Of a stretch of DNA of 64,000 nucleotides, positions 26,353 to 27,225 are shown piece by piece. Where the stretch lies: assembly GCA_949743955.1 (NCBI GenBank), contig CATJVQ010000026.1, positions 1 to 64,000 on the forward strand. The letters are read 5' to 3'. Position 1 is the stretch's first letter. Every line of letters starts with the position of its first letter. Under the pieces are notes generated by a model. The model did not search any database. It worked only from the letters and a program-made list of their open reading frames with translations, and had not been told where the DNA came from. Position numbers and translations under genes: made by a program. The DNA is from an uncultured Oscillospiraceae bacterium. GTDB taxonomy: Bacteria; Bacillota; Clostridia; Oscillospirales; Ruminococcaceae.

Positions 26353-26386
26353 ACGTGACGCCTCCGTCAAAATCTAGTCTCTGACC

Positions 26387-26488
26387 TATGGCAATTCTCA
26401 AAAATATTTCCACTTGTCGCGCCGCAGAAAGCCTGCGTTATGGCCTTCTGCGGCGTATAGTTCGGTAATATTTTTGAAAATTGCCATA
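26387..26488. repeat. 102-bp terminal-inverted-repeat element (MITE-like), copy 1
   Basis: Ends are 26-bp inverted repeats differing at about three positions (left begins TATGGCAATTCTCAAAAATA; right, read on the opposite strand, TATGGCAATTTTCAAAAATA). Inside lies a second stem CGCCGCAGAA / TTCTGCGGCG. The outer TA on both sides could be a TA target duplication as made by IS630/mariner transposases. A related copy is at 48702-48781. No protein is encoded. It forms the 5' leader of the yebC-cca transcript. Confidence 0.7.
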
Positions 26489-26491
26489 TTT

Positions 26492-26520
26492 ATTATACCA
26501 AACCCCAGGAGGCAAGTCAA
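26492..26520 (-). promoter_or_regulatory. Promoter of yebC-cca
   Basis: TTGACT (26515-26520) and TATAAT (26492-26497) on the minus strand, with a 17-bp spacer. Transcription would begin near 26485, at the boundary of the inverted-repeat element. Confidence 0.75.
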
Positions 26521-26587: not shown

Positions 26588-26616
26588 TTGACAAACTCCG
26601 ATTCATCCGTTATAAT
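26588..26616 (+). promoter_or_regulatory. Near-perfect sigma-A promoter of the ~600-nt RNA
   Basis: TTGACA (26588-26593), exactly 17 bp, TATAAT (26611-26616): both hexamers match consensus. It is the strongest promoter in the window and diverges from the yebC promoter. Confidence 0.9.
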
Positions 26617-26622
26617 AAAGTC

Positions 26623-27225
26623 ACAGTCAAGGGAGAGATAAAGAAAGAAACAAATCACCATCCGAGGCGGTATAGGAAAGCCGGATGGGTAGCGAAAGGG
26701 GTGGTTCCGATGTACGTGGAAGAAGAGACAATACCGTTTTCGGTTCCGCCGGTAATTGCCTGATTTGGTAAGCTGTTTTTGTCAGGGAATATGTTTCGAT
26801 TCTTATTGCAGAGCGGATATACAAACGCATTCGACAAGAGACGAACTCGTGCAGGGTGATTTCCATTCAAAATGGAGCTTCCGGATACAGAGTAAACGTT
26901 CAGTCAATGGAAGCAATTAGCGATGCAATCAAAAATCCTATCATTCCTTTACGTTTTGAGTGGACTTGACCACAGAGGATACGAACAGGCGCTCAGAATT
27001 GGCGGAAATCGAAAACGAAACGGGTATTTTCACAGGAAATCCGGCAAATGGGTCCGGAAAGTGGAAAGCCGTTATTCCCCATAGCGTTTGCATAGATGGG
27101 CCTGCCGCAAGACTCACGGCAGTTTCGGGAGGGCTGTAAGATGGGAATCTGTTTTGCGGCGTACCCACACGAAAACTGAATAGGATAAATCATCCGGAAT
27201 CGTAATGGTTCCGGATGATTTTTAT
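26623..27225 (+). ncRNA. Candidate large structured non-coding RNA (about 600 nt)
   Basis: A self-contained unit with consensus promoter and strong intrinsic terminator, but no reading frame longer than about 66 codons and none with a convincing start. Near the 5' end AATCACC pairs with GGTGGTT around an inner CCATCCG / CGGATGG stem. Further stems include ACCG-TTTT-CGGT, CCTGA / TCAGG, CCCAT / ATGGG and CCGCAA / TTGCGG. Size, isolation and structure resemble the large ornate RNAs, especially OLE (about 610 nt in Clostridia and Bacilli); this identification is a hypothesis. Against it, two stretches (26787-26965, 26968-27139) are open in different frames and look protein-like, so a decayed gene is possible. 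Base composition is AT-richer than neighbouring genes. Confidence 0.6.
27187..27224 (+). terminator. Terminator of the ~600-nt RNA
   Basis: A 12-bp perfect stem AATCATCCGGAA / TTCCGGATGATT with a nine-base loop, then TTTTATTT. It ends at the stop codon of the convergent spoIVFB-like gene. Confidence 0.92.

Follow-up and report, generated by a model that had tools for sequence, protein, structure and literature searches.

Dual-function small RNAs such as SgrS/SgrT and RNAIII have a promoter and a terminator of their own and a single short ORF, located near the 5' end. In phage lambda, bar is a two-codon minigene in an mRNA leader. Among stand-alone regulator RNAs, 6S RNA traps RNA polymerase; the large RNAs of the OLE, ROOL and GOLLD classes have no long ORF. 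Two-codon minigenes such as axe-txe mg2 and LEE1, made of a strong Shine-Dalgarno (SD) sequence, a start codon, one sense codon and a stop codon, undergo translation and either hold ribosomes or recycle them; they are also reported to allow re-initiation, to cause peptidyl-tRNA drop-off and to protect transcripts (PMC8708949). Relatives of the locus described here contain candidate elements with this anatomy; axe-txe mg2 and LEE1, however, stand in front of a gene and regulate it in cis, whereas the related units contain several such elements in a terminated RNA with no gene. Like the dual-function small RNAs, the locus itself has an independent promoter, a terminator and an SD-led short ORF near the 5' end.

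Analysis of the window, that is, the whole stretch of 64,000 nucleotides, confirmed the features of a stand-alone transcription unit of about 600 nt, as the original prediction had proposed: a sigma-70 promoter, TTGACA-17-TATAAT, is located on the plus strand at 26588-26616, with 12 of 12 consensus positions and the claimed spacer of 17, and an intrinsic terminator with a T-rich tail follows on the same strand at 27187-27221. The terminator stem, previously given as 12 bp, comprised 16 pairs by our scan; the scan was of a loose kind, with one site expected by chance, and the site at 27187-27221 is the one closing the promoter-led unit. Four promoter-like sites were found in 1.2 kb, as compared with 1.2 +/- 1.3 in shuffled sequences, the one at 26588-26616 being perfect. 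The absence of a continuous ORF was also confirmed: on both strands, ORFs contained entirely within the unit do not exceed 79 aa. The local GC content is approximately 0.45, against 0.55-0.70 in the surroundings. The unit is flanked by two minus-strand ORFs: a YebC-type ORF (26370-25618) and a 191-aa ORF with no NCBIfam match (27797-27222). Between the YebC-type ORF and the promoter, at 26383-26492, there is a large near-perfect inverted repeat, GGCAATTCTCAAAAATATT...AATATTTTTGAAAATTGCC with the inner stem CGCCGCAGAA/TTCTGCGGCG, which resembles a MITE or else a palindrome of the terminator type and attracts spurious miRNA matches in Rfam.

The GGTGGTT region is a predicted ribosome-binding site followed by a short ORF, both of which had been overlooked. 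An extended SD, GAAAGGGGTGGTTCC (26694-26708, plus strand), is complementary to the 16S rRNA tail with a duplex energy of -18.1 kcal/mol and is followed by an ORF of 17 codons, sORF1 (26710-26763, plus strand), encoding MYVEEETIPFSVPPVIA before its stop codon. Among the 44 long genes of the window the best value was -15.6 kcal/mol, even with six starts allowed per long gene, and the median -10.9 kcal/mol. The 16S tail, GGATCACCTCCTTTCT, was read from relatives; the assembly that contains the window did not yield it. A probable 3' mini-ORF, MGICFAAYPHEN plus stop codon, with the SD GGGAGGG (duplex -10.8), is predicted on the plus strand at 27141-27179, near the 3' end, where G001 and the congener G002 carry GGTGAGTCC-N-ATG-AAA/AAC-stop. 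Two further ORFs, MELPDTE (26872) and MGPESGKPLFPIAFA (27048), were not claimed: their SDs were weak or badly spaced. A long-range helix of 19 bp (26735-27017, plus strand; duplex -28.1 kcal/mol), also present in the predicted fold, joins an arm inside sORF1 (26735-26753) with an arm at 26998-27017. As judged from its sequence, the window copy contains few parts, namely sORF1, a single probable mini-ORF at the 3' side and the long-range helix with sORF1.

Used as a query against 198 related genomes, the whole unit gave short matches only, one of them of 56 bases, falling at GAAAGGGGTGGTACCGATGTAC, in G002, which is the same contig as a Provencibacterium MAG. The parts of the G002 locus follow in the same order as in the window: TTGACA...TATAAT, a leader rich in purines, the shared 22-mer, a long body that could not be aligned, and a terminator. 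The 22-mer used as a pattern (up to 2 mismatches) gave 12 matches in 10 of 298 family genomes, mostly downstream of a TTGACA/TATAAT-type promoter, against 1 for the reversed pattern; three named contigs are among the homologues found by pattern. This first set was picked by the 22-mer, and conservation of the 22-mer within it is therefore partly circular. A sequence-only model of the 5' region, R1, matched strongly (E about 1e-7 or better) in 48 of 397 same-family genomes, nearly all in single copy, and the further R1 matches differ from the 22-mer mostly at 3-8 positions. With model R2, plausible units were found in five further families of the order (f4, f9, f11, f15 and f24); R2 is promoter-heavy, and its matches L185 and L186, where another place was picked, were unconfirmed and not counted. 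In a class-wide sample no unit was found outside the order at E 1e-10, a strict search that rang only for the window itself, and the whole unit had no nucleotide match in phages or plasmids. A phage origin of the module was rejected, no match being found in viral contigs. In G006 (contig C3) the unit and 6S RNA occur twice with the same 2,961-bp offset (L075/L066, at 1076597 and 1079558), which is either a tandem duplication or an assembly repeat. Conservation across an order supports the option of a new class of free-standing RNA unit, and the view that the unit is a real stand-alone RNA gene of a so far unlisted family, spread across one order of gut bacteria.

The anatomy of the 5' region was examined in 82 homologous units. 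A sigma-70-like promoter was in the same place in 82 of 82; the -10 box precedes the start codon (73 ATG, 9 GTG) by approximately 58 nt; the SD of sORF1 pairs with the 16S tail at -8 to -21 kcal/mol, with a median of -14.9; and the first ORF has a median of 21 codons, all these figures being somewhat favourable since the start codon with the best SD was chosen. The length of sORF1 is conserved within genera. Terminator-like hairpins end most homologous units; the predicted transcripts of relatives would be 500-1000 nt long, with a terminator at the end and no ordinary gene behind.

Downstream of sORF1, modules of the form (G)GTG[AG]NTCC-N followed by ATG or GTG repeat in the relatives. A stop exactly at codon 3, which would make the module a two-codon minigene, was observed in 50 of 84 internal modules as compared with 6.6% of 1948 other ATG/GTG of the same units, the regular expression having been written after examples had been seen; once close relatives were dropped, which removes relatedness only partly, the count was 42 of 65. 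All but three of the 84 modules terminate within 16 codons. The same stop occurred 8 times in frame +1 and never in frame +2; ATG context could not serve as a control for frame, since TGA is part of ATGA. The stops (24 TAG, 20 TAA, 6 TGA), the second codons (16 kinds) and the starts (4 GTG) are varied, and such variation marks a reading frame rather than a fixed RNA word. In four genomes of genus g93, of 2.3-2.8 Mb, all exact matches of GGNGTGAGTCCNATG are inside the unit, so this sequence is not their ordinary SD. Altogether, the further mini-ORFs, present in most relatives, are SD-led and have 2 to about 16 codons, with up to six ORFs per RNA. Very probably, then, the units are arrays of mini-ORFs, each led by an SD, and fit neither the classical non-coding RNA nor the mRNA for a protein; a point against this reading is that the window copy has no TGAGTCC two-codon module.

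Other repeats were seen in single loci. In L062 (G086 C81), tandem RNA modules, ATGAAAGGACTTTATAGACTGCATAAAACAATCTAA (MKGLYRLHKTI) and GGTGGTACCGATG-TAC-TAA / -GTT-TAA, adjoin an apparent sigma-factor gene and have no Rfam match. In L090 (G033), three hairpin-like copies of GGAGGATGGTTCCCTC, 50-70 nt apart at unit positions ~624, 671 and 743, precede the terminator; this repeat is distinct from the TGAGTCC modules. A start-less module, GGAGTGAGTCC[AG]CC then GAAA, is located near the 3' end in L117, L118, L123, L131 and others, in some units apparently within a hairpin.

The locus had originally been proposed as a candidate large structured RNA, and the stems named at that time are present: AATCACC (26653-26659) and GGTGGTT (26700-26706) around CATCCG/CGGATG form a plus-strand leader hairpin (26653-26706) which covers part of the sORF1 SD, and CCGCAA/TTGCGG lies in the 27110-27165 region. 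The leader hairpin is not common to the relatives compared and is therefore a local feature. In favour of structure, none of 20 shuffles reached the stability of the 26624-27226 fold, terminator hairpin included (z -2.8). Against it, when a global fold was compared over five species, just 6 of its 96 pairs had changed at both positions, and the covariation term did not favour the structure; a conserved global fold was rejected, covariation of base pairs being weak in these five species. The relatives carry several short translated-looking ORFs, so that a large structured non-coding RNA describes the unit only in part.

The reading we prefer, with a probability of about 45%, is that of an RNA of SD-led mini-ORFs acting via ribosome engagement, with the capture of initiating ribosomes in trans as its leading proposed function. 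Ribosomes would initiate at each mini-ORF and stop almost at once, and these near-immediate stops would let them load the RNA without running through it; such a dual-function regulatory RNA would capture initiating 30S/70S in trans, as a sink or as a sensor of how much initiation capacity is free. If sORF1 of the window copy is translated, the long-range helix would be opened, and the folding of the RNA would thus be governed by ribosome occupancy as well. Of the two parts of this reading, ribosome engagement is highly likely, while action in trans is a guess. By analogy with 6S RNA, also a stand-alone regulator but different in sequence and with no model match to the unit, the RNA would trap initiating ribosomes in place of polymerase. 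A pure sink would not need a conserved peptide, such as MKLARSWI within one genus.

SDs and mini-ORFs could instead act in cis, with bound ribosomes protecting or folding a regulatory RNA that has its function elsewhere, in base pairing with mRNAs or in a protein-binding motif such as TGAGTCC; this we regard as possible but unlikely. Strong SDs of mini-ORFs have been reported to shield transcripts from RNase (PMC8708949), and TGAGTCC also occurs without a start codon, as in TGAGTCCACCGAAA near the 3' end and in three repeats of L092. Such start-less sites are many (46 TGAGTCC-like sites beyond 150 nt in homologues) and speak against the preferred reading, since the motif could have another role as well. 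Action in cis would also fit the long-range complementarity that the sORF1 region has in several genera, including the invariant GCAGUUUC/GAAACUGC of genus g48. In the window this region paired with the downstream body better than shuffles did (z -3.0), with its optimum at another partner than the helix arm; over 73 units the mean z was -1.1 and only 20 fell below -2, and long-range pairing of sORF1 was rejected as a general feature. A bare SD, moreover, needs neither stops at codon 3 nor synonymous-only change in internal ORFs, and conservation of the body is poor outside the modules, even among members of the window's genus.

Slightly less probable is a polycistronic mRNA whose micro-peptides (8-30 aa) are the active products. 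Such a function would be in agreement with genus g44, in which the internal ORFs are longer and two evolve as coding sequence under strong purifying selection: MKLARSWI, whose 26 pairwise differences are all synonymous, with a TGA/TAA exchange, and MN[VM]NKHKIL, as in MNVNKHKIL, with a pN/pS of 0.06. In another family, L182 has 8-codon MRxxLLxx ORFs repeated along the RNA, and the sORF1 peptide often starts with M[YDN]xxEE (MYxxEEP in several families). This start is only loosely kept, however; the pN/pS of sORF1 is 0.5-1 or more in most groups, peptides vary from genus to genus, and a meaningful peptide is hardly possible from ORFs of two codons. In five species the g44 ORFs MKRHxxx and MNRCxxx both hold to exactly 7 codons, while their stops and last residues vary. 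This coding evolution of internal ORFs in g44 counts in favour of the preferred reading as well. A tandem duplication of sORF1 and the MKLARSWI module was seen in L150 (G394), the MKLARSWI copies differing synonymously only.

A diverged member of the OLE, ROOL or GOLLD classes, as had been suggested, is very improbable. The length of about 600 nt is similar to that of OLE (~610 nt), and the xse/isp/dxs cluster is where it had been placed, with xseA, farnesyl-PP synthase, dxs, tlyA and NAD kinase at 57-64 kb on the same contig; in several bacteria OLE genes are reported within or next to such a cluster, and the unit is about 30 kb from it. The likeness in size looks like coincidence. No model matched: cmscan gave no OLE, ROOL or GOLLD in the unit at E up to 10, the whole window had nothing at Rfam gathering score, no Rfam 15 family covers the unit, and the 33 homologous loci contained none of the three at gathering score, while 6S and RNase P were found there. 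OLE (RF01071) was also not found in the whole genome, which is weak evidence as no control genome rang. The unit differs from these classes in its translated-looking mini-ORFs, to our knowledge not a feature of any of them, and in its little covariation. A T-box likeness of GGTGGTTCC was rejected, there being no Rfam T-box match in the loci.

6S RNA was close by in 17 of the 33 loci tested; in G002 it lies beyond a DUF1292-like ORF, divergent from the unit. In L085, class A RNase P RNA and 6S RNA both lie no farther than ~1.5 kb from the unit. The genome of the window has 6S RNA and the DUF1292-like ORF on another contig, with no unit seen there, so a move of the window copy out of its customary neighbourhood is probable. 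Because this copy lies elsewhere, a functional link with 6S RNA was rejected as probably a mere shared neighbourhood.

The possibility of gene decay, or of a promoter and a terminator paired by chance, for which the lack of a long ORF and the displacement of the window copy might speak, has hardly any probability left and is refuted by the homologues, in which promoter, SD and sORF1 are conserved order-wide together with unit-specific repeats.

Ribosome capture by SD-led mini-ORFs, the reading preferred here, leads to a wider and tentative proposal, more likely wrong than right: an order-wide class of RNAs serving as decoy or sensor of translation initiation, in which extended SDs and near-immediate stops would trap ribosomes. 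SgrS/SgrT and RNAIII have one ORF, whereas the unit family has up to six, many of them of two codons. In the literature, covered in part, no RNA of repeated SD-start-codon-stop modules was found. The family appears new in kind, with one reservation: should the RNA work through base pairing of the ordinary sort, it would rank as a novel form among the dual-function small RNAs. If the mini-ORFs are indeed translated, the line between coding and non-coding RNA would be blurred, bacteria would have an added way to control or measure ribosome availability, and it would become clear why a large group of gut bacteria conserves a gene of 0.5-1 kb that has no long ORF.
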